From assembly GCA_002700385.1 (NCBI GenBank), contig PADC01000011.1, positions 62,001-126,000 of the forward strand: 64,000 nt of DNA, given 5' to 3'. Below the pieces are notes generated by a model. It had not been told where the DNA came from. It saw only the letters and a program-made list of their open reading frames with translations, and searched no databases. The position numbers and the translations under genes were made by a program. Positions 39,240-53,269 of the stretch are shown here, piece by piece (position 1 is the stretch's first letter; each line of letters begins with the position of its first letter). Source of the DNA: Cycloclasticus sp. Lineage in GTDB: Bacteria; Pseudomonadota; Gammaproteobacteria; Methylococcales; Cycloclasticaceae.

Positions 39240-41888
39240 TTAATTAACGTGAATTCCCATTCGTGTCTTAATTCGATAAGCTAAATCTACAATAATATGA
39301 CTTGCTAAAAAAGGCATTATTTTTATTCTTATTGTATTCTCAGAAGGCTCATAACCATTCTCTCTACTGCGAATACGAGTCATTTCCTGAATTCCAATCT
39401 TATTTATTACTGAGGACGTTTTTTGAGCCCCATGTATCCGAAACGCACCCAAGAACCGCGGAATATGAGCAAATTTAGCACCTGCTTTTTTGAATCGCAT
39501 AATCAAATCCCAATCCATTGCAAACCGGAATGACTCATCAATTTCCCCGCCTGACTTATCCCAAATACTACGGCGCCAAAACATTGTCTCTTGGGGAATA
39601 AAATCCGCCCAATTCAGCGCTTTATTACTGTGGTAGGGCAGAATCCATCGACCAATTTCCATGTCTTCATCATCAATCATCAAACGGTTACCGTAAACAA
39701 CATCCACATCAGGATGTTTATTAAAATATTCTGCAACAATACGCAAAGTATCTGGCAGGAGTAAATCATCAGAATTCAACCAGGCCATAATTTCACCCGA
39801 GGTTTGCACGAGCCCCCTATTAATAGCCTGTGATTGCCCATTGTCTGACTCTGACTCCCAGCCAGTTAGCCTATCTCCATATTCCTTTAGCACATCAACC
39901 GTCTCATCACTTGATCCTCCATCTTGAACAAAAAATTCAAGGTTAGGGTAATTTTGACTCAATACACTATCGATTGTTTTACCGATAAAATTGGCTTGAT
40001 TAAATGAAGGTGTGACAATAGAAATCATAGGGTAAGCATTTAGCTGCTCACTTTCAATTAAAAAGGAGCGCTCCTGCTTTAAAGGCCTACCTTCATATTG
40101 ATTCAACCAACCCAAACGTGGACGAAAGATTATTGGAATCCTTGCTGGTATTGACATGAGCGTTCTTAAGCCAACGGCGTCAGCAACAATCCGAAGTTTT
40201 TCTTTTCGCTTTCGTCGTGACTCGTATGCTTGTATAACGCGCTCTTTTTCTGCAGCTAATTTAGATAGGTTCTGTATAGATTTTTCTTTTTCTTGTAACG
40301 AAATTTCCTGAGCTTGATTAGTATCTTCTTTTTCTTGTTGCGAAACTTCCAAGCACTTAACTACCTGTTCTTTTTGTCGCAATGATGCCGATAGACCTTG
40401 TATTACGGCTTCTTTTTGTTCAAGCTCTGACTGGAGCCTTGCTATAAATTTACATTTCGAACTATAGGAGTTTCTGGATAATTCTTCAATAAATACTTCC
40501 ATGTTTGTATAGTTAAAATCCTTGTGGACAAAAAATACATTTCCCCAATCGCCCTTTACAGACCAAGAAGTATTACTTTCGACCGTTTCCATTTGGCCAT
40601 TTCTGCGTACAACCACAGACTCACAATACCCATTCTGTTTTGCCCATTCAGTTAGATCTCTAAGAGTATATTCACTAGTTCCACTTGTTTCTGGAAGATC
40701 ATCCCAGTACTCAGCCATAATAATAGTCGGCCTTATTTTGCCTAATCCATGCAGCACATTTAAATCATGCCCATCCGTGTCGATTTTCAAAAAATCGATA
40801 TGATTCGGCTCAGAACAATTATTAATAAAATTAGCTAAGGTTGTAATTTCTACATTAATAACTTTAGCCGTTCTGTTAACTGTGGCAGAGTCTCCTAAAT
40901 CACTTAATGTGTGATGGTAATCCAGTTCATTCCCAGCACTATCAAGCGCCACATGAAATTGTGCGTCTCCCGTTTTATCAGAAACAGCATATGGGTTGAT
41001 GGTGACCAAATCTGATGTTCCATACTTTTTGTTCAAGTATTCAAGATGTCTAGGCAAAGGCTCAAAGCCATCAACTTTTTCAGCACCGTGCTGCACTGCC
41101 AACTCAATAAAACTTCCTCGTTCGACCCCAATATCAATAACATACGGCTCAGTAAAACAACTTAAAAACTTAGCTGCAATATCAAATTCTACTTCTTGCC
41201 CATAGTCATCCGTATCAATATAGCCATATTGACGTAGCCAAGTTGAAAACTCGGCCTGGACTTGATCATAGATTTGCTTATCCACCTCTGCTAGGTTTTC
41301 TGGCTCAGGTTGAAAAGTCCTATGACCAGGTAATATCATCGAGTCTATTGAGTAGTTAACTTCATCCGTAGTCTGTTTGCCTTGAAAACTTTTTTCAACT
41401 TGTTGGCGCACTGCTTGACTATCTTCATACAGCTTAAGTCCTGGTTTTTTTCGTCTAATCACATCAATAATCTTGATTAAACCCTCTTCTTCATTGTTAA
41501 CGAGATCTTCATATTGCAAACTTATATCCGCATAATTCATCCATGCTTTTTGGGCATCAATCCAAGACGCAATAAAACCATAGGAATATTTCGAGTTAAA
41601 TTTCCTATGACAGCTAACCGCCGCAGCCCTGATATCTCTATATGAATAAATAATGAAATCTGCATTATCAGCCAACGCTTTACTATAGTGATGACATTTA
41701 GCAATACACACGCCTTTTGAGGTCAAGAATTGTTGTTCGGCATCATGGTCAGATGGATCGATCCACAGTTTTTTGGGTTGGTAATCAGACGTTAATTCGG
41801 AAACCACATTAAAAATCCATGTGGTCATTGATCGTGGCATACCACAAATCAATATTTTAAAATTTTGGTGTGTAATATTATCCTTCAT
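39240..41888 (-). CDS. Sulfotransferase-like / FkbM methyltransferase / GT2 fusion protein
   Basis: An 882-residue protein with three enzyme-like parts. Residues about 10-220 are sulfotransferase-like: ILICGMPRSMTTWIFNVVSE (PAPS 5'-phosphosulfate loop, with Met where Gly is usual) and YSYRDIRAAAVSCHRKF (3'-phosphate region). Residues about 245-460 are an FkbM-type methyltransferase: YVIDIGVERGSFIELAVQHG, VDGFEPLPRHLEYL, AVSDKTGDAQFHV, IDFLKIDTDGHDLNVLHGL. Residues 489-558 form five 14-residue coiled-coil repeats. Residues about 620-860 are a GT2 glycosyltransferase: MISIVTPSFNQANFIGKTID, VQDGGSSDETV, SDNGQSQAINRGL, IMAWLNSDDLLLP. No membrane helix or signal peptide is seen. It probably adds a sugar and modifies it with methyl and sulfate on the cytosolic side; this is inference. 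Confidence 0.85.
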   Translation of the reverse strand: MKDNITHQNFKILICGMPRSMTTWIFNVVSELTSDYQPKKLWIDPSDHDAEQQFLTSKGVCIAKCHHYSKALADNADFIIYSYRDIRAAAVSCHRKFNSKYSYGFIASWIDAQKAWMNYADISLQYEDLVNNEEEGLIKIIDVIRRKKPGLKLYEDSQAVRQQVEKSFQGKQTTDEVNYSIDSMILPGHRTFQPEPENLAEVDKQIYDQVQAEFSTWLRQYGYIDTDDYGQEVEFDIAAKFLSCFTEPYVIDIGVERGSFIELAVQHGAEKVDGFEPLPRHLEYLNKKYGTSDLVTINPYAVSDKTGDAQFHVALDSAGNELDYHHTLSDLGDSATVNRTAKVINVEITTLANFINNCSEPNHIDFLKIDTDGHDLNVLHGLGKIRPTIIMAEYWDDLPETSGTSEYTLRDLTEWAKQNGYCESVVVRRNGQMETVESNTSWSVKGDWGNVFFVHKDFNYTNMEVFIEELSRNSYSSKCKFIARLQSELEQKEAVIQGLSASLRQKEQVVKCLEVSQQEKEDTNQAQEISLQEKEKSIQNLSKLAAEKERVIQAYESRRKRKEKLRIVADAVGLRTLMSIPARIPIIFRPRLGWLNQYEGRPLKQERSFLIESEQLNAYPMISIVTPSFNQANFIGKTIDSVLSQNYPNLEFFVQDGGSSDETVDVLKEYGDRLTGWESESDNGQSQAINRGLVQTSGEIMAWLNSDDLLLPDTLRIVAEYFNKHPDVDVVYGNRLMIDDEDMEIGRWILPYHSNKALNWADFIPQETMFWRRSIWDKSGGEIDESFRFAMDWDLIMRFKKAGAKFAHIPRFLGAFRIHGAQKTSSVINKIGIQEMTRIRSRENGYEPSENTIRIKIMPFLASHIIVDLAYRIKTRMGIHVN
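40215..40424 (-). repeat. Five tandem 42-bp repeats encoding a coiled coil
   Basis: Within the fusion gene, residues 489-558 form five consecutive 14-residue units: LEQKEAVIQGLSAS, LRQKEQVVKCLEVS, QQEKEDTNQAQEIS, LQEKEKSIQNLSKL, AAEKERVIQAYESR. The shared core is (Q/E)KE at positions 3-5. They separate the methyltransferase and glycosyltransferase domains. Confidence 0.85.
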
Positions 41889-42270: not shown

Positions 42271-43129
42271 CTAAAGCTTAAATTTCTTTGCCGATAACCC
42301 TTGTATTACTTTTTCTTTTTCCTTTTCAATTAACTGCAGCATGTTGTCAAAACGTTCTCTAGCTGTTTGTAGCGTAGATAACATCAGCTTTTGATGTCTC
42401 CTCTCAACACCAATAAAGTCTTTTGCTAACTGAAGCTCTTCTTTTGTTGTGCATCCTAATTTTTTCATCTGAGAACCATGAGTAAATAAAAACATCTTCT
42501 CATCCAAGTCTGTTCTATAACCCGGTCGCTTTCAGTGATTTATGCCACGCTTCCTTTCTAACAACTTCTTCTTCTTGCTTACTCATTAACCTTGTTAAAA
42601 AGGCCTTACCTCACCACGATATCTAAATGAAATGAGCTATTCCCTCAAGTATTTCTTGCGTTGGTTCAACAATGTCTTCGTAACGCAAGACAACTCTCTT
42701 TGTTTTACCCCACTGAAGCCAAGCACTATAATGATTATTCCAATCTGGGTAGTAGCCTCTTCCAATAACTAGTCTGAATAACCGGTAACGAAAACATCAA
42801 AGATGGGTGATTCAATTGCCCTCTTTTGATAGTGTTTACGTAACTTTATACGACAAGGCGTCCGTCCCGGACAATATACATCACAGGGAAATCACCTGTA
42901 GGAAAAGAATGCGTCTTGATAATTACTGTTTCGTTACTATTTTAGCGCTTTCGTAACACTCATCCCATGTGCCCCCACACTTTAAAACACCATAATCGTT
43001 AACTAATGCTTCTGTTGAAGCAATGGCGCTCCCATGTTTGCTGTAAGACGTCAGCCCCATGCTTTTTTTTAAAATATTCCTCATCAACGTATTTCCACTT
43101 CTGGGATATGAGGCCAACCAAATAATCAC
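42271..43129 (-). pseudogene. Decayed sulfotransferase gene
   Basis: All parts of one sulfotransferase can be followed on the minus strand. The first is MIIWLASYPRSGNTLMRNIL (PAPS loop) from ATG 43129. After a one-base loss near 42925 comes VIIKTHSFPTGDFPVMYIVR, then DGRLVV, a TAA (42847-42845) and SYVNTIKRGQ. In another frame follows VIGRGYYPDWNNHYSAWLQW, then GKTKRVVLRYEDIVEPTQEI, ending at TAG 42625-42623. Further shifts give DIVVR, KAFLTRLMSKQEEEVV and KEAWHKSLKATG. The frame from 42507 supplies the C-terminus LDEKMFLFTHGSQMKKLGC plus a coiled-coil tail. At least five disruptions. Its ATG overlaps the stop of the intact sulfotransferase gene upstream, so it was once part of that operon. 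Confidence 0.8.
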
Positions 43130-44095: not shown

Positions 44096-44791
44096 TTAGG
44101 CGCTCTTACTGTTGTATTGCTCGAAAACTTCATTTGTTGCCCCATCCATTTTGACCCGACCTTTTTCTAACCACACAACTCTTTTACACAAACGTCTAAC
44201 TTGGGATTCATTGTGAGAAACAAAAATCACACTTTGCTGAGAATTAATTTTTTTCAACAAGTATTGCTCTGCCTTTTGCCGAAAAGAAGCGTCCCCCACT
44301 CCAAGCACTTCATCCACTAGTAATAAATCCACTTTAAGGGTTACCGCCACTGAAAAACCGAGACGCGCTTTCATTCCTGTCGAGTAAGTCTTCATTGGTT
44401 GGTAAATAAAATCTCCCAACTCCGAAAATTCAATAATACCTTCCAACAGCTTCATTGCCTGTTTCTTAGTTGCACCTAATAACATAGCGCTAATAATTGC
44501 ATTATCTCGACCAGATAGCTCAGCATCGAAACCGACACCTAAAGTCAATAATGATATACGCTCACAGAATTGAGTAATACTGCCTTTATCGGGCTTATAA
44601 ATACCGGCCAACAATTTAAGTAACGTGGATTTTCCACAGCCGTTTTTACCTATAACTCCTAGGGTCTCACCTTTTGATACATTAAAACTGATACTATCAA
44701 GCGCTGTGAACCTTTTTTGTCGAAAAAAAGCCAGCCGCGTCCGGTAACTCAGCGTTACATTGTCTATGATCAAAAGATTGTTTGCCGTCAT
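44096..44791 (-). CDS. Polysaccharide ABC exporter ATPase (Wzt/KpsT-like, short form)
   Basis: Walker A GKNGCGKSTLLKL (about 48-60), signature region YSTGMKARLGFSVAV, Walker B LLLVDEVLGVGDASF and the H-loop VIFVSHNE are complete. This is the ATPase of a two-gene exporter that moves undecaprenyl-linked or lipid-linked glycan across the inner membrane. At 231 residues it has no C-terminal carbohydrate-binding domain, unlike Wzt proteins that recognise a modified chain end. Its ATG overlaps the permease stop by 1 nt. Confidence 0.92.
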   Translation of the reverse strand: MTANNLLIIDNVTLSYRTRLAFFRQKRFTALDSISFNVSKGETLGVIGKNGCGKSTLLKLLAGIYKPDKGSITQFCERISLLTLGVGFDAELSGRDNAIISAMLLGATKKQAMKLLEGIIEFSELGDFIYQPMKTYSTGMKARLGFSVAVTLKVDLLLVDEVLGVGDASFRQKAEQYLLKKINSQQSVIFVSHNESQVRRLCKRVVWLEKGRVKMDGATNEVFEQYNSKSA

Positions 44792-45618
44792 TATTGCATC
44801 ACCAAACGCGCGTAGGTCGTGTCTGTTTTCTTAAACCAGACATTCATCGCAATAATAGCCAGTACACTAGCTAAGCAAATCACCCCCAGCGCATGCCAAT
44901 CTGGAGTGATATTATCAATCAACACCTCTCGATAGTTTTTAAATAGATTGGCTAAAGGATTCATTAAAAACAGCTCTTGGTGACGTTCAGATAAGAATTC
45001 TTTGTAACTGTAGAAAATGCCAGAACCAAACATTAGTATCATTAGACCCGTTCCGACTAGAAACTTAAAATCTGGAATAAATGGGGTGATCGCCGACACC
45101 AGTAACGCACAAGCGGTAATAAGCAACATTTGAGTTAGTATTACCGGCAGTACATAAATCCAATGTGCAACTGACCCATCACCATAGATCGCTAGAAATA
45201 CGAAAAGAAAGAAAAATACAAATAATTGTTTAATAAAGTCTTGTGCAACCACCAGTAATGGAAAAAACTGTTTTGGAATTGCAATTTGAAGAATTAAGCC
45301 TCTGCCAGCTACAATGGAATTAGATGCATTAGAGATTGATTTGGAAAACCATAAAAACGGTATTTTGCCACATAGTAAAAACAACAAAAAATCGTCTGTA
45401 CCACGGTTGAGGATAACACTAAACACCAAATAAAATACTGAGACATACAAAGCCGGTTCTAACAGCCACCATGCATAACTAAGGTACGTTTTTTTTGTTT
45501 CAGACTTTAAGTTCAGCCTTAGTTTTGTAAAAAAAACTTCGACTATATGATGCTTTGTATTAACCACAATATTTACTTTTCCTATAAATGTACTGTAAGC
45601 ATAAAAAGAGCTTGTCAA
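44791..45618 (-). CDS. Polysaccharide ABC exporter permease (Wzm/KpsM-like)
   Basis: An ABC-2 permease with about six membrane helices between residues 50 and 265 (for example LLEPALYVSVFYLVFSVIL and FFFLFVFLAIYGDG). It pairs with the downstream ATPase. The start is uncertain: TTG 45618 is the longest, but GTG 45567 (VVNTKHHIVEVF) has an AGGAAAA site about 9 nt upstream and gives a length closer to family size. Together with the ATPase it indicates ABC-dependent export; no Wzx or Wzy is seen in the window. Confidence 0.9.
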   Translation of the reverse strand: MTSSFYAYSTFIGKVNIVVNTKHHIVEVFFTKLRLNLKSETKKTYLSYAWWLLEPALYVSVFYLVFSVILNRGTDDFLLFLLCGKIPFLWFSKSISNASNSIVAGRGLILQIAIPKQFFPLLVVAQDFIKQLFVFFFLFVFLAIYGDGSVAHWIYVLPVILTQMLLITACALLVSAITPFIPDFKFLVGTGLMILMFGSGIFYSYKEFLSERHQELFLMNPLANLFKNYREVLIDNITPDWHALGVICLASVLAIIAMNVWFKKTDTTYARLVMQ

Positions 45619-45804: not shown

Positions 45805-46779
45805 CTATAGCCTCAAGTTATCATCTGTTTGATTAGCCAAAAACCATCGATATGTTGCAGTTAATCCTTGTTCCAGACTCATGCTAGCTTTCCAACCTAA
45901 CTGTTCTAACCGTGATACATCCATCAGCTTGCGCGCTGTTCCATCTGGTTTTGTTGTATCAAATGTTAACTGGCCTTTAAAATCCACCACTTTTTTAAGC
46001 GTTTCGGCTAACTCTCTAATGGTGCAATCAACACCGGTACCTACGTTAATGTGGCTTAACATCGGCTCGGTATTAGCCTGATACAGTTGTTCCTCTAATT
46101 GCATCACATGTATAGAGGCTGCAGCCATATCATCTACGTGTAAAAACTCTCGCATTGGTTTACCTGTACCCCACACTACCACTTCGTTTTCGCCCTTCTC
46201 TTTTGCCTCATGAAAGCGACGCATCATGGCCGGAATGACATGGCTGTTTTCGGGGTGAAAATTATCATTCTCGCCATACAAGTTTGTAGGCATAACACTG
46301 CGGTAATCCGTACCGTATTGTCGATTGTACGACTCACATAGTTTAATACCCGCAATTTTGGCAATGGCATATGGCTCATTTGTTGATTCTAATATGCCTG
46401 TTAACAATGCTTTTTCTGTCATTGGTTGTTCCGCCGCCTTAGGATAGATGCATGAACTGCCTAAAAATAGCAGGTTACGACAGCCTGATTGATAAGCCTC
46501 GTTAATCACATTGGCTTCCATCATTAAATTTTGATAAATAAACTCTGCAGGATATGTATTGTTAGCATGAATACCCCCAACTTTAGCGGCTGCTAACACC
46601 ACATAATCAGGTTGCTCTGATTGCATAAACTCTCGAACAGCACCCTGATTACATAAATCTAATTCTGCATGTGTTCGACAAATAATGTTGCTATACCCTA
46701 ACGATTGTAACTGTCGAATAATAGCCGAACCCACCATACCCCGATGGCCCGCCACATATATTTTAGATGTTTTTAACAT
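45805..46779 (-). CDS. fcl: GDP-L-fucose synthase
   Basis: Epimerase-reductase turning GDP-4-keto-6-deoxymannose into GDP-L-fucose. NADP loop [31 protein letters not shown] (catalytic Cys region), and [13 protein letters not shown] (Tyr, Lys). 324 residues. Follows gmd by 19 nt on the same strand. Confidence 0.95.
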
Positions 46780-46798
46780 AGACGTTTCAGATCAACCC

Positions 46799-47926
46799 TT
46801 AGTTTTCCAAAGCGACGGAAACATCATGGCCGTGTAGCTTCAACAGCGCATGACGTTTTGCACTCTCCAAATCATTGGCAACCATTTCCGAGCACATTTC
46901 TTCAACGGTAATTTCTGGCACCCAACCTAGCTTTTCTTTTGCCTTTGCTGGGTTGCCGAGCAAAGTTTCTACTTCGGCTGGGCGGAAATAACGCGGATCA
47001 ACCTTAACAATCACATCGCCAATATTCACAGCATCTGCTTTATCTCCTGTTATTGCCACAACGGTGGCCACCTCATCGATACCCTTGCCACTAAACTCCA
47101 GTTCGATACCTAATTCGCGTGCACTTAATTGTATAAATTCGCGTACTGATATTTGTTTTCCTGTCGCGATCACAAAGTCTTCTGGCTGATCTTGCTGAAG
47201 CATCATCCATTGCATACGAACATAGTCTTTAGCATGCCCCCAGTCACGAAGCGCATCCATATTACCTAGATACAAGCACTGCTCTAACCCTTGTGAGATA
47301 TTGGCTAATGCACGTGTAATTTTTCGCGTTACAAACGTTTCGCCTCTGCGCGGTGATTCGTGATTAAACAATATGCCATTACACGCGTACATCCCATAAG
47401 ACTCGCGATAATTGACTGTAATCCAATAGGCATACATCTTAGCAACGGCATAGGGTGAACGGGGATGAAAGGGTGTGGTTTCTGTTTGTGGGATTTCTTG
47501 TACCTCACCATATAGCTCTGAGGTTGATGCTTGATAGAACCGCGTTTTCTTTTCTAACCCTAAAAAGCGTATCGCTTCTAGTAAACGTAGCGCACCCATC
47601 GCATCAACATCTGCCGTGTATTCCGGCGATTCAAACGACACGGCAACATGTGATTGAGCACCCAAATTGTAAATTTCATCGGGCTGTACATCATTAATGA
47701 TACGCGTCAGGTTCGAAGAGTCTGTTAAATCGCCATAATGAAGATGGAAGTGACTATTTGATTCGTGCAGGTCATGATAAATATGATCAATACGCTGCGT
47801 ATTAAAAGAAGACGCTCGTCTTTTAATCCCATGAACTTCGTACCCTTTTTCTAATAAAAACTCAGCTAAATACGAACCATCTTGCCCTGTTACACCTGTT
47901 ATTAGTGCTATTTTTTTCTTTTTCAC
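46799..47926 (-). CDS. gmd: GDP-mannose 4,6-dehydratase
   Basis: First committed step to GDP-fucose (also GDP-rhamnose or GDP-perosamine). [35 protein letters not shown] (Thr, Glu), and [17 protein letters not shown] (Tyr, Lys) are intact. 375 residues. With fcl downstream the product is GDP-L-fucose. GDP-mannose synthesis genes are not in the window. Confidence 0.96.
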
Positions 47927-48664: not shown

Positions 48665-49441
48665 TTATGCCACTATAAAAAACGGATTTAGTAAGTTTTG
48701 TTTATTGTATGCCAAACCAGCCATTTTTTCGCCTTGCTGATAAACATTGATAACCTTGCCAGCTTCTAAAACAACCGCATGTGCCGCGGCGGTATCCCAT
48801 TCCATCGTTGGCCCAAGTCTTGGGTATATATCAGCCTCGCCTTCTGCAACTAAACAAATTTTTAAAGAGCTGCCGATAGAGACCAGCTCTTTTTGTTTAT
48901 CTGTTTGTATCGCGTCAACATATGCTTGCGTCTCTTCGGACATGTGCGAGCGACTTGCCACTATTTTATAGGTTTCTCGTTGATGCGCTTTTTTTATTGG
49001 CAGTTGCTTTGCGTCCTTAAAAGCCCCTTCGCCTTTTTTTGCCCAATACATTTGGTTTAACGCGGGGGCATAAACAACGCCTAAAACGGGGACACCTTGG
49101 TGTATCAGCGCAATATTGACCGTAAATTCCCCATTTTTTTTAACAAATTCTTTCGTCCCATCCACGGGGTCTACCATCCAGAAATAGTCCCAGCTTTTTC
49201 TTTCTTCATAAGGGATATTTTTCCCTTCTTCAGACATTAGTGGAATTGACGTATTATTTTGTTGATCTAAAACTTTTAAGCCACGCTCAATAATGGCATG
49301 TGCCGTTTTATCTGCTTCAGTCAAAGGCGATTCATCGGCTTTATATTCAATTTCAACGTCTTTTTGATAAATGTCCATGATCGCTTCACCGGCTTTTTTT
49401 GCCAACGCGACAACATCCTGTACGTCTATTTTATTTAGCAT
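48665..49441 (-). CDS. cysQ: 3'(2'),5'-bisphosphate nucleotidase CysQ
   Basis: Hydrolyses PAP, the by-product of sulfotransferases, to AMP and phosphate, which removes a strong sulfotransferase inhibitor. Mg ligands are seen in MSEEGKNIP, WMVDPVDGTKEFVKKNGEF and MEWDTAAAHAVVLEAG. 258 residues. It begins 2 nt after the cysC stop, so PAPS production and PAP removal are co-transcribed. Confidence 0.94.
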   Translation of the reverse strand: MLNKIDVQDVVALAKKAGEAIMDIYQKDVEIEYKADESPLTEADKTAHAIIERGLKVLDQQNNTSIPLMSEEGKNIPYEERKSWDYFWMVDPVDGTKEFVKKNGEFTVNIALIHQGVPVLGVVYAPALNQMYWAKKGEGAFKDAKQLPIKKAHQRETYKIVASRSHMSEETQAYVDAIQTDKQKELVSIGSSLKICLVAEGEADIYPRLGPTMEWDTAAAHAVVLEAGKVINVYQQGEKMAGLAYNKQNLLNPFFIVA

Positions 49442-49442
49442 G

Positions 49443-50036
49443 TTAGATATAAGCGTGTTGTTTAAGGTAATCCACCACCTGTGCCGCTGCTTCTTCGATA
49501 CTGATGCCGTGATTGACTACGTGTAGCTCGGGTGTTTTCGGTTCTTCGTAGGGGGAGTCTATACCGGTAAAGTCTTTAATTTCTCCCGCCCGTGCTTTTT
49601 TATAGAGGCCTTTTGGGTCTCTTTGTTCACAAACGCTCAAGGGCGCATCAATAAAGACTTCAACAAATTGGCCTTTCATCGCCATGTTTCGCACCATTTC
49701 CCGGTCTTTTTCGAACGGTGAAATAAAAGCCGTCACCACCACTAAACCGGCATCACAAAATAAATTAGCCACTTCGCCAACACGGCGAATATTTTCTACG
49801 CGATCTTCTTCACTGAAGGTAAGCCCCTTATTCAGCCCTTGGCGAACATTATCACCATCCAATAAATAGGTATGCTTTTTCATCCCAAACAGCAGGTTCT
49901 CTACGGCATTTGCAATGGTTGATTTGCCACTGCCGCTCAGCCCTGTAAACCATAAAATACAAGGCTTTTGCTGCTTTAGAATCGCACGCTGTTGTTGACT
50001 CACATGATGCTCATGCCAGACCGTATTGTTAGTCAT
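49443..50036 (-). CDS. cysC: Adenylylsulfate (APS) kinase
   Basis: Phosphorylates APS to PAPS. Walker A WFTGLSGSGKSTIANAVE (about 29-46), LLDGDNVRQGLNKGLTFSEE, the serine-containing VTAFISPFEKDREMVR, and the lid region DPKGLYKKARAGEIKDFTG are all standard. 197 residues, soluble. A second, membrane-anchored kinase is encoded 65 nt upstream in the same direction. Confidence 0.95.
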   Translation of the reverse strand: MTNNTVWHEHHVSQQQRAILKQQKPCILWFTGLSGSGKSTIANAVENLLFGMKKHTYLLDGDNVRQGLNKGLTFSEEDRVENIRRVGEVANLFCDAGLVVVTAFISPFEKDREMVRNMAMKGQFVEVFIDAPLSVCEQRDPKGLYKKARAGEIKDFTGIDSPYEEPKTPELHVVNHGISIEEAAAQVVDYLKQHAYI

Positions 50037-50101
50037 TTTTTATAATTCCTGAATTTTGTACGCTAATTAATGCCACCGTGACATCCTTGTTTTGAAACCC
50101 A

Positions 50102-50827
50102 TTATTTCACGTAATGTTTCTTGATGTATTTAACAATGAGCGAGGCCGCCTCGTCCACACTTGTTGTCTCTGTATTGATCACAATCTCTGCTCGTTGCGG
50201 CTCTTCGTAGACCTCATCGACACCCGGGAAATTTTTAAATTCTCCTGCTAATGCTTTTGCATAAGCCCCTTTATAATCACGGCTTTTGCACGTTTCAACG
50301 TCGGCTTTCACATACACGATAACGTTGTTTTTGACCATATCACGAATAGCACGTCGTGACTCTTTGTAAGGGGAAACAAACGAAGCCACTGTAGATATTG
50401 AGTTATTCTGCAGCGTACAGATCAGGTTGCCAATGCGATGCATATGACGATTTCTATCCTCTCGCTCATACCCAATGTCGGGGATTAAATCGCGAATATC
50501 TTTCGAATCAATGCGTTCCAGAGGAATGTCAATTTTCTCTAATTCGTCATACACCTTGTCGGCAATGGTCGTTTTTCCACTAAGAGGCAAGCCGGTAAAC
50601 CATAAATTAAAAGGCTCAATTCTTTTTTTACCCCAACGCACTTTAAACCAGGCCCTTTCATGAAGCCAAAACAAGCCAATTTTTAACGTGGTTTCTATCG
50701 CACCTGCGGCAATAGCCAGATCAAGCCGATCAAAGAACACATAAACAATAACAATGGTGGTGGTGGTTGCAACAAGCCGCCACGTAATTCCTTTTACGAT
50801 AGAACGTTTATTGGTCTCTTTGTACAT
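50102..50827 (-). CDS. DUF2061-APS kinase fusion (membrane-anchored APS kinase)
   Basis: Residues about 1-60 are a DUF2061 domain (RSIVKGITWRLVATTTTIVI, then ETTLKIGLFWLHERAW) with two short membrane helices. Residues about 72-241 are an APS kinase. Walker A reads GLPLSGKTT in place of the usual GLSGSGKST but keeps the key Gly, Lys and Thr. RIDSKDIRDLIPDIGYEREDR, STVASFVSPYKESRRA and DYKGAYAKALAGEFKNFPG correspond to the other catalytic segments. It lies between cysN (91 nt) and cysC (65 nt). The second kinase suggests PAPS production at the inner membrane. Activity is inferred. Confidence 0.85.
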   Translation of the reverse strand: MYKETNKRSIVKGITWRLVATTTTIVIVYVFFDRLDLAIAAGAIETTLKIGLFWLHERAWFKVRWGKKRIEPFNLWFTGLPLSGKTTIADKVYDELEKIDIPLERIDSKDIRDLIPDIGYEREDRNRHMHRIGNLICTLQNNSISTVASFVSPYKESRRAIRDMVKNNVIVYVKADVETCKSRDYKGAYAKALAGEFKNFPGVDEVYEEPQRAEIVINTETTSVDEAASLIVKYIKKHYVK

Positions 50828-50918
50828 TGATTACATACATCCTGAAACTTCAAAGGATCAATCTTAACTGTTCAGGCTTGTTTACACCAACTATATGATG
50901 ACATCCATGTCATTTTAG

Positions 50919-52355
50919 CTACAACTCATCAAGCGAGCGACAACCCCATTCAGGAAAGTTTTCCCGGATCATTTTATTCAGATCTTTTTCAAACGCCGAA
51001 TACTCACGAACCCTCTTTTGTTGATCAACTTTGGTCGACGCTTTCTGAATCATTCCCGCCGCCAGCGTTGCGTGGGTGTACTTATCTATAACAATAAAAC
51101 TCCCTGTCCCTTTAATATCGGCATACGGATCAAAGGAGATTGCTTTATTCAACACCAACTGGCACTGGGCAATTTCATTCAGCTGAAGTTCTGCCGCCTT
51201 TTTCTTCTCCAAGGTGTTTACGTCAATCTTATGATGGATTTGTTTAAATTGTCCCGGCACAACATTCGTGGCTCGTTTAATTAAATAGTCTGTGTTTGGC
51301 TGCATTGGAATCTCGCCCATCCAGACTAACATCACTTCTAATTGATCGGCCATTTCAGGAATATCGGCAGTTTTGACCATCATATCGCCACGGCTCACAT
51401 CCACTTCATCTTCCAATGTCAGTGTTACTGCCATCGGCGCAAAGGCCTCACCCACATTCATCTCTTCTTCATTCACGGCCGGTTGGATCACCTGTTTAAC
51501 GATGGATGTTTTCTTTGATGGCAACACCGTGATTGAATCACCAACTTTAACCGTGCCTGCGGCAATCGTGCCACAAAACCCTCTAAAATCCAGATGAGGC
51601 CGATTAACGTATTGAACGGGCAAACGGAAATTATTCAGGTTAACGGTCTCTTCCAATGGAATGGTATCCAGCTGCTCCATCAAGGGAGCACCCATGTTCC
51701 AAGACATCTTCTCACTGCGATTCACAACATTGTCGCCTGTTAGTGCTGAAACCGGCACAAAAATAGGTGATTGAATACCGATCTCTTTGGCAAAGTTCAG
51801 GTATTCGTCTTTTATTTCATTAAAACGCTGCTCACTAAAATCCACCAAGTCCATTTTATTCACGGCAACAATGATATGCTTGATACCCAACAGGTTAGTA
51901 ATAAAGCTATGGCGACGTGTTTGCGTTTGCACACCATGACGCGCGTCAATAAGAATAATAGCAAGATCCGCTGTCGACGCACCGGTGGCCATATTTCGCG
52001 TATATTGTTCATGGCCGGGCGTATCCGCGATAATAAATTTACGTTTATCGGTGGCGAAAAAACGATACGCAACATCAATCGTAATTCCTTGCTCCCTTTC
52101 AGACTGAAGCCCATCTACTAACAAGGCCAAATCCACCTCTTCGCCTGTTGTACCGTGTTTTTTAGAATCTTTATTGATCGCCGCCAATTGATCTTCGAAA
52201 ATCATTTTACTGTCATGTAACAATCGACCAATTAAGGTGCTTTTGCCATCATCCACGCTACCGCAAGTGATAAAGCGCAATAGCTCCTTATTTTCATGCT
52301 GATGAAGATACGCCTCAATATCTGATTCGATTAGATTGTTTTGCTCAATCGCCAT
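50919..52355 (-). CDS. cysN: Sulfate adenylyltransferase GTPase subunit CysN
   Basis: The GTPase of ATP sulfurylase, which couples GTP hydrolysis to APS formation by CysD. G1 GSVDDGKSTLIGRLL, G3 DTPGHEQYTRN, and G4 VNKMDLVD are complete, followed by EF-Tu-like barrels. 478 residues, so there is no fused CysC domain as in some CysNC proteins. ATG overlaps the cysD stop by 1 nt. Confidence 0.96.
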   Translation of the reverse strand: MAIEQNNLIESDIEAYLHQHENKELLRFITCGSVDDGKSTLIGRLLHDSKMIFEDQLAAINKDSKKHGTTGEEVDLALLVDGLQSEREQGITIDVAYRFFATDKRKFIIADTPGHEQYTRNMATGASTADLAIILIDARHGVQTQTRRHSFITNLLGIKHIIVAVNKMDLVDFSEQRFNEIKDEYLNFAKEIGIQSPIFVPVSALTGDNVVNRSEKMSWNMGAPLMEQLDTIPLEETVNLNNFRLPVQYVNRPHLDFRGFCGTIAAGTVKVGDSITVLPSKKTSIVKQVIQPAVNEEEMNVGEAFAPMAVTLTLEDEVDVSRGDMMVKTADIPEMADQLEVMLVWMGEIPMQPNTDYLIKRATNVVPGQFKQIHHKIDVNTLEKKKAAELQLNEIAQCQLVLNKAISFDPYADIKGTGSFIVIDKYTHATLAAGMIQKASTKVDQQKRVREYSAFEKDLNKMIRENFPEWGCRSLDEL

Positions 52356-53269
52356 TAGAAATACCCCTCAATCTTTTTCTTTTCCATAGAGCCTGATTCA
52401 TCGTGATCAATCAATCGGCCTTGGCGTTCTGACACCTTTGTTAACAACATTTCTTGAATAATTTCAGGCAAGGTTTCTGCATTTGACTCAACTGCGCCCG
52501 TTAAAGGATAGCAGCCCAAGGTTCTAAAGCGCACCTTTTCCATCACCGCCTTGGCGCGTAACTCTTCTGGCATACGGTCATCATCCACCATGATCTTCGT
52601 ACCACCGTATTCAACCACAGGGCGCTCTTTAGCAAAATACAAATCAGGAATTGGAATGCCTTCTAAATAGATGTACTGCCAAATATCCAACTCAGTCCAA
52701 TTAGACAGTGGAAACACACGAATGGACTCGCCTTGTTGATGACGACCATTGTAGACATCCCATAACTCTGGACGCTGATTTTTTGGATCCCACCGGTGAT
52801 TCTTATCACGAAATGAATAAATACGTTCTTTCGCACGAGACTTTTCTTCATCACGTCGCGCCCCACCAAAAACAGCATCAAATTGATACTGGTCTAACGC
52901 CTGCCGTAACCCTTCTGTTTTCATGATATCCGTATGCATAGAAGAGCCGTGCGTAAAGGGCGAGATATTCAGCTCCTCGCCTTTGGGATTAATATGAACA
53001 ATCAACTCCATTCCAACATCTTTTGCACGTTGATTACGAAACGCTATCATTTCTTTAAACTTCCATTGCGTATCCACATGCACTAGCGGAAACGGTGGGT
53101 TTGCAGGAAAAAAAGCCTTTTGCGCAAGATGCAACATAACCGACGAATCCTTGCCAACACTATAAAGCATGGCGGGGTTATCAAATTCCGCGATCACTTC
53201 ACGTATAATATGGATAGACTCGGCTTCCAATCGCTTAAGGTGTGTTAATTGTTTTTTACTTATAACCAT
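52355..53269 (-). CDS. cysD: Sulfate adenylyltransferase catalytic subunit CysD
   Basis: Forms APS from ATP and sulfate together with CysN. The PP-loop-type nucleotide site is [20 protein letters not shown] (about 34-53), followed by [20 protein letters not shown] and the closing [21 protein letters not shown]-type tail. 304 residues. First gene of the run cysD-cysN-DUF2061/cysC-cysC-cysQ; a divergent AT-rich promoter region lies upstream. Confidence 0.97.

Follow-up and report, generated by a model that had tools for sequence, protein, structure and literature searches.

A sulfotransferase–FkbM methyltransferase–glycosyltransferase fusion beside an ABC exporter in Cycloclasticus, a possible modifier of glycan chain ends

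A 64,000-nucleotide stretch of a Cycloclasticus sp. genome (contig PADC01000011.1, positions 62,001 to 126,000; hereafter the window) encodes an 882-residue protein in which a sulfotransferase domain, an FkbM methyltransferase, a coiled coil and a C-terminal family 2 glycosyltransferase (GT2) follow one another on a single chain. This three-part combination is real and seems rare in the genomes searched, whereas each part is ordinary. The protein probably completes or decorates a surface polysaccharide. By analogy with characterised systems, we propose that the fusion is a trifunctional enzyme that sulfates and O-methylates the growing end of a glycan exported by an ATP-binding cassette (ABC) transporter, with the coil serving as a kind of ruler, and we give this reading a probability of about 0.45. 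We infer that all three domains are active, that the exported glycan is the acceptor and that the modification is terminal and sets chain length.

The initial annotation of this gene had described an uninterrupted frame of 882 codons carrying three enzyme families in order, and exactly that frame was found, free of internal stops, on the minus strand of a 2.52-Mb genome in 13 contigs; by eye, AGAGGA ends seven bases 5′ of its ATG. Two further copies have the same domain order, one of 865 aa and 60% identity in the one-contig genome of a sibling species (G014) and one of 70% identity on a separately assembled 4.5-kb contig of a metagenome-assembled genome (L009, JADFVK010000287.1), whose frame is cut off within the GT2 by the contig end, after 625 residues. 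Pfam, run on the whole chain, places Methyltransf_21 (FkbM) at residues 252–394 (E = 4e-15, 56.8 bits against a cut-off of 22.7) and Glycos_transf_2 at residues 623–747 (9e-26, 91.2 bits against 23.3), and NCBIfam adds TIGR01444 fkbM_fam (3.1e-18, 66.6 bits against 37.7). The FkbM domain has LKIDTDG at 367–373 and DIGVERG at 252–258; the latter is invariant in all three fusion copies and fits D-x-G-x-x-x-G, which we take to be the S-adenosylmethionine (SAM) loop of FkbM methyltransferases. An alignment of this domain gave no match against PDB at 0.01. The GT2 part matches chondroitin synthase (2z87, 2.7e-21) and has NSDD at 705–708, in which the acidic SDD is presumably the GT2 metal motif. 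No carbohydrate-binding domain was found in the fusion protein with Pfam.

The sulfotransferase assignment comes from structure. The whole chain matched no sulfotransferase family in Pfam at E ≤ 0.01; residues 1–240 alone gave Sulfotransfer_3 (3.3e-4, 21.4 bits against a cut-off of 27) and Sulfotransfer_1 (0.0041, 17.0 bits against 22), the equivalent regions of the G014 and L009 copies matched Sulfotransfer_1 at 0.0074 and 0.019, likewise below cut-off, and NCBIfam at 0.001 had no match for the domain. The profile searches that the initial annotation had suggested place FkbM and GT2 above their cut-offs and the sulfotransferase below them. We accept the sulfotransferase fold despite these scores because of a structure model and its matches. 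An AlphaFold2 model of residues 1–236, built from an 8-row alignment, reached a predicted local distance difference test score (pLDDT) of 82.2 and a predicted template modelling score (pTM) of 0.81. Its best VIA-align match is Teg12 (Z 13.8, root-mean-square deviation 4.1, 206 residues). The 50 rows listed comprise 46 whose title or name marks them as sulfotransferases and four of retinol dehydratase, presumably a sulfotransferase relative; Foldseek returned Teg12 again (3mgb_B, 5.2e-7) and human SULT1E1 (1.4e-6). On this model the N-terminal domain is a sulfotransferase fold, as had been expected from its motifs.

Residues and selection point the same way. Twelve columns are invariant in all eight aligned sulfotransferases (R19, S20, T23, N27, K64, H66, R84, D85, R87, S92, Y126 and H189), and the loop that would bind 3′-phosphoadenosine-5′-phosphosulfate (PAPS) has R19, S20, T22 and T23, the first, second and last of them invariant in the eight rows. 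Taking roles from SULT enzymes, we assume that R19, S20 and T23 belong to the PAPS (5′-phosphosulfate) loop, that K64 and H66 are catalytic and that R84 and S92 form the 3′-phosphate site. The Met in place of Gly in PRSMTTW, flagged at the outset as a possible alteration of activity or acceptor, is real, and the motif with Met21 is identical in all three fusion copies. Nei-Gojobori estimates of omega (the ratio of nonsynonymous to synonymous change) between the window fusion and the L009 and G014 copies are 0.22 and 0.17 for the sulfotransferase domain, the former rough since the region includes a patch of unusually high identity; 0.09 and saturated for FkbM; and 0.18 (41 codons) and saturated for GT2. 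From these comparisons the sulfotransferase domain seems to be kept by purifying selection, and so does FkbM. Met21, invariant in three copies of a constrained domain, does not look like a mark of decay. The patch, at 41169–41438 (residues 151–240), has a third-position identity to L009 of 0.83–0.93, against 0.30–0.70 elsewhere in the gene, and looks like a recombined segment over the end of the sulfotransferase domain.

The predicted coiled coil, which the initial annotation had seen as a repeat joining the modules, was borne out: a 14-residue unit of the type LEQKEAVIQGLSAS occurs five times in succession, and, as counted by eye, five times in G014 and three to four times in L009. Lag-14 self-identity over 70 residues is 0.38 in the window, 0.46 in G014 and 0.32 in L009, values reached by 0/5000 shuffles each. 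A continuous helix at 461–564 is drawn in the full-length model, which at a pLDDT of 37.5 from 3 alignment rows was otherwise too poor for use. In L009 the second sulfotransferase ends in a similar stretch, as does the decayed counterpart of that gene in the window (Table 1).

The surroundings of the gene look like those of a surface-polysaccharide locus. Along the minus strand the window has Gmd, Fcl, Wzm, Wzt, a 282-aa sulfotransferase (ST1), a decayed second sulfotransferase and the fusion; in G014 the order is Wzm, Wzt, sulfotransferase and fusion, then, on the other strand, the Cys set that the window also has; and on the L009 contig the tail of Wzt is followed by one sulfotransferase, a second that is intact, and the fusion. 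In all three copies, therefore, the genes ahead of the fusion include Wzt and a stand-alone sulfotransferase, and Wzm is present in both copies with enough flank, the L009 contig reaching the end of Wzt only. This puts the fusion in a locus with a Wzm/Wzt ABC exporter, as in ruler-terminator systems. In the window, the genes that would make PAPS and a phosphatase-like gene for its product 3′-phosphoadenosine-5′-phosphate (PAP) are about 7–11 kb away from the fusion, and in G014 no more than about 5 kb away; the distance to Gmd and Fcl is about 4 kb in both.

Table 1. Features of the window around the fusion gene (positions in the window)
Feature	Position	Strand	Basis
Fusion gene, 882 aa (sulfotransferase, FkbM methyltransferase, coiled coil, GT2)	39240–41888	−	ATG start, 882 codons
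GT2 glycosyltransferase domain, residues 617–850	39339–40040	−	PF00535 9e-26; NSDD
Predicted coiled coil, five 14-residue repeats, residues 489–558	40215–40424	−	Repeat self-identity
FkbM (Methyltransf_21) SAM methyltransferase domain, residues 235–460	40509–41186	−	PF05050 4e-15; TIGR01444 3.1e-18
PAPS-type sulfotransferase domain, residues 8–225	41214–41867	−	AlphaFold2 model, VIA-align, Foldseek; Pfam sub-threshold
Putative 5′-phosphosulfate loop GMPRSMTTW, residues 16–24, Met21 replacing Gly	41817–41843	−	Motif reading and alignment
Decayed second sulfotransferase gene, between ST1 and fusion	42295–43129	−	tblastn pieces in three frames, internal stops
Stand-alone sulfotransferase ST1, 282 aa	43126–43974	−	PF00685 2.3e-7
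Wzt-type ABC ATPase, 231 aa, no Wzt_C found	44096–44791	−	Pfam
Wzm-type ABC-2 permease	44791–45618	−	PF01061 9.4e-5, below cut-off; adjoins Wzt
GDP-L-fucose pathway genes: Fcl-type epimerase/reductase and Gmd	45805–47926	−	TIGR01472 gmd 5.7e-179; PF01370, name Fcl inferred
PAPS supply/recycling: CysQ-like, CysC, DUF2061-CysC, CysN-like, CysD-like	48665–53269	−	Names inferred from families and order

We propose that the fusion is a cytoplasmic enzyme of an ABC-transporter-dependent surface polysaccharide. Its C-terminal GT2 would add sugar to a lipid-linked chain, while the sulfotransferase and the FkbM methyltransferase would share the opposite end of the coil; the domain order places these modifying modules at one coil end, away from the predicted polymerising GT2. 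Sulfate and O-methyl would be put on different hydroxyls of the non-reducing chain end, perhaps of fucose, and their addition would stop or finish the chain before export. Its mode of action would resemble that of WbdD and Klebsiella O7 ORF6, terminators with a coiled-coil ruler, except that a sulfotransferase replaces the kinase. The initial annotation had suggested that one protein could add a sugar and then methylate and sulfate it; this is possible, although a coil that separates the GT2 from the pair fits modification of a distant chain end better.

The comparison with known systems is close in layout and inexact in chemistry. For O-polysaccharides exported by ABC transporters, a coiled coil serves as the ruler and carries the terminating enzyme at its distal end, polymerising GT2 modules may share the chain at its C terminus, as in Klebsiella O7 ORF6, and the caps described are methyl, methyl-phosphate and Kdo (PMC11231755). 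We favour chain-end modification because the layout of modifying enzymes, coil and GT2 matches terminators of the O7 ORF6 type. In Klebsiella pneumoniae, O7 ORF6 comprises a methyltransferase-kinase, a coiled coil and two GT2 modules, and it shares with the window protein N-terminal modifying enzymes including a methyltransferase, a coil, a C-terminal GT2 and an ABC-exported polysaccharide (PMC11231755). The window protein differs in having a sulfotransferase for the kinase, a sulfotransferase that precedes the methyltransferase, a methyltransferase of FkbM type, a single GT2 and, by Pfam, no carbohydrate-binding domain, and its chain termination is a prediction. WbdD (Escherichia coli O9a; Klebsiella O3/O5) pairs a kinase with a methyltransferase and likewise carries, at one coil end, a methyltransferase together with another transferase of small groups, serving an ABC-transporter-dependent O-antigen (PMC3482155); its second enzyme is a kinase, not a sulfotransferase, and its polymerase glycosyltransferases are on another protein (PMC11231755). 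Characterised systems use Wzt_C to recognise the cap (PMC11231755). Unlike that of the WbdD system, the window's Wzt is without this cap-recognising domain, and for this reason we do not file the fusion in the ruler-terminator family. In the wbsalmo locus of Aeromonas salmonicida a sulfotransferase-domain gene lies between Wzt and the ruler-type glycosyltransferase protein WbbB, although there the sulfotransferase is a separate 216-aa gene and FkbM goes unmentioned in the excerpted text (PMC4483657).

It is conceivable, again by analogy, that a sulfo-methyl cap would be a new chain-termination chemistry, and we advance this tentatively: the sulfotransferase and methyltransferase, carried on a ruler coil that is joined to a polymerising GT2, would end the ABC-exported polysaccharide in a residue bearing both sulfate and O-methyl, instead of methyl, methyl-phosphate or Kdo. 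Were the two to act on chain ends, sulfate would join the known terminators and the ruler would become testable. To our knowledge the acceptors of sulfotransferases are rarely known, which makes sulfated bacterial surface glycans difficult to foresee from gene content. In a chain that ties a sulfotransferase and a methyltransferase to a glycosyltransferase of the same polymer, the association points to the acceptor.

Several observations weigh against this proposal. The sulfotransferase domain is under the Pfam cut-offs in 3/3 fusion copies, and the Gly replaced by Met21 is present in the other 5/5 aligned sulfotransferases. The coil is the most variable part of the protein (omega 0.25 and 0.52), and a crude coil scan missed the L009 coil and falsely flagged a helix of the sulfotransferase. 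Wzt_C was not found in the Wzt of the window (231 aa) or of G014 (254 aa), so that among the three fusion loci it occurs in the L009 Wzt only. Genes for PAPS supply are no peculiarity of this locus, since CysN is found in 10/13 genus genomes searched. A sulfate would not be methylated in the way that WbdD methylates its phosphate, which makes the analogy inexact. Finally, a sulfotransferase at such a locus is no proof of a sulfated glycan, because the O-antigen made by wbsalmo has no sulfate reported for it in the excerpted source (PMC4483657).

The most serious competitor, which we consider possible and somewhat less probable than chain-end modification, is decoration of every repeat unit: the GT2 would add, for example, fucose, FkbM would methylate it and the sulfotransferase would sulfate it, with the coil a mere tether. 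Gmd and Fcl genes near the fusion in both the window and G014 fit such a scheme, as does the distribution of Fcl, present in 4/10 genus genomes tested including both with the fusion, although it also occurs in 2/8 without the fusion and GDP-fucose as the GT2 donor is only presumed. A Wzt without Wzt_C likewise suggests that a cap is not needed for export. A separate-gene precedent exists in Sinorhizobium fredii NGR234, where fucosylation is assigned to the nodZ cluster, methylation of the fucosyl residue to noeI and sulfation of the Nod factor to noeE (PMC4881576); these differ from the window protein in being separate genes acting on a Nod factor rather than an exported polymer. NoeI is presumably FkbM-like, and NoeE presumably acts on the fucose. 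The coil speaks against decoration of each repeat, since regular 14-residue repeats kept in three copies exceed the needs of a tether.

An unlikely alternative is that the sulfotransferase domain lost catalysis through Met21 and now serves as an acceptor- or PAPS/PAP-binding module, leaving only methyl and sugar transfer. The substitution, found in 3/3 copies and in 0/5 of the other aligned sulfotransferases, and the sub-threshold Pfam scores would fit this, but the remaining PAPS and catalytic residues are conserved, omega is low, and PAPS genes and another sulfotransferase are at the locus. Far less probable still, to the point of being negligible, is an assembly or annotation artefact joining neighbouring genes. 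In another genome of the phylum (G557), two neighbouring but separate genes do encode a GT2 and a protein related to the sulfotransferase domain; against this stand a frame without a stop and the same domain order in two further copies, at 60–70% identity, in the one-contig G014 and the separately assembled L009, on which ground we rejected the assembly error that had been named beforehand as what might undo the fusion. A phage or plasmid origin was also rejected, since tblastn with the sulfotransferase domain had no match in plasmids or phages and scans of viral contigs gave no relative.

Sulfate and O-methyl addition at the chain end, the reading we prefer, belongs to a chain that is rare in the genomes searched (counts for the sulfotransferase domain and the FkbM part include the window's own genome). 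The sulfotransferase domain occurs in 2/61 relatives at 1e-3, or 2/18 within the genus; in 2/369 class genomes at 1e-6, its own and one with a stand-alone 251-aa protein; and in 4/398 phylum genomes at 1e-4, its own, G557, G650 and G553. The fusion's FkbM part occurs in 2/61 relatives at 1e-10 and, at 1e-20, in 1/369 class genomes (its own). The search for the same architecture that the initial annotation had recommended yielded 11 pattern matches across genome contigs with 2 relatives, of which L010 matches in the GT2 only. Several searches of open-access papers returned none that matched all queried terms.

FkbM in general is common, being found in 171/299 phylum genomes at 1e-8. Among the matches listed, which run best scores first and are not a random sample, 17 frames of at least 600 aa contain it; we scanned 15, leaving out a 4456-aa frame of G437 and handling that of G553 separately. 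Eight of these 15 also carry a glycosyltransferase (GT4 in three, GT41 in three, GT2 in one and, weakly, GT9 in one), two carry an aminotransferase and five have no further enzyme class at 1e-3, whereas a sulfotransferase was found in none of the 15 at 1e-3. By a crude scan of these same listed matches, 3/8 of the FkbM-glycosyltransferase fusions have a coil between the two enzymes. They resemble the window protein in joining FkbM and a glycosyltransferase on one chain, but without a sulfotransferase; the FkbM-glycosyltransferase pairing is therefore ordinary and the sulfotransferase the unusual addition.

A different chain with all three activities is found in G553 (L019:7316–11296, plus strand), where 1327 residues hold TPR, GT41 (3.8e-57), Sulfotransfer_1 (8.8e-18) and FkbM (7.4e-16), adjoining genes for flagellin (PF00669, 1.4e-32) and FliD (PF07195, 9.7e-41). 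Like the fusion it has a glycosyltransferase, a sulfotransferase and FkbM on one chain; unlike the fusion it has GT41 rather than GT2, begins with the glycosyltransferase and neighbours flagellin and FliD rather than an ABC exporter. A crude coil scan found no coil in it. It is a possible one-chain enzyme of flagellin glycosylation, methylation and sulfation, its sulfotransferase domain occurring in 2/78 genomes of its order, and as part of a long frame in G553 only. Because this chain beside flagellin has another glycosyltransferase and another order, comparison of the sequences suggests that the three activities were fused more than once.

Other relatives keep the parts apart. G557 has a Wzm/Wzt locus (L020:8489–16757, minus strand) with four sulfotransferase genes and a GT2, one of the four encoding a separate protein related to the N-terminal domain of the fusion. 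In G650 (L021:5797–9143, plus strand) a 594-aa, mostly coiled-coil protein is followed by a 515-aa protein with a sulfotransferase in its C-terminal half; the idea that the latter contains two sulfotransferase halves was rejected, as its first 295 residues have no sulfotransferase match at 0.01.

The locus itself looks like a variable, serotype-like surface-polysaccharide locus. Between the window and G014 identity is 19% for Wzm and 41% for Wzt, against 72–83% for Gmd, Fcl, CysN and CysQ (72% for the Fcl-type gene and 82% for Gmd), and therefore, judging from these identities, the fusion seems to have been retained through an exchange of exporters. Four siblings examined that are without the fusion (G007, G008, G011 and G012) have other genes in the position next to cysN; those of G007 include a 1020-aa double GT4, Wzm, a Wzt bearing Wzt_C (1.3e-37) and a 562-aa methyltransferase. 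The methyltransferase (L068:9846–11534, minus strand) has a long coil-like tail and adjoins the Wzt with Wzt_C, and is a candidate for the ordinary ruler terminator of this sibling.

ST1 is 51% identical to the sulfotransferase genes that precede the fusion in G014 and L009, both of PF00685, and the intact counterpart of the decayed second sulfotransferase (L009:1686–2573) is a 295-aa protein of the same family (3.1e-15). Upstream of Gmd in the window lie the CysD/CysN-like genes, two adenosine-5′-phosphosulfate (APS) kinases and the CysQ-like phosphatase; one of the kinases (50102–50827, minus strand) is fused to a DUF2061 membrane domain and adjoins the second, plain one, and a similar pair was read by eye in G014. 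The same 2.52-Mb genome also gives 16 matches to ring-hydroxylating dioxygenase alpha subunits.

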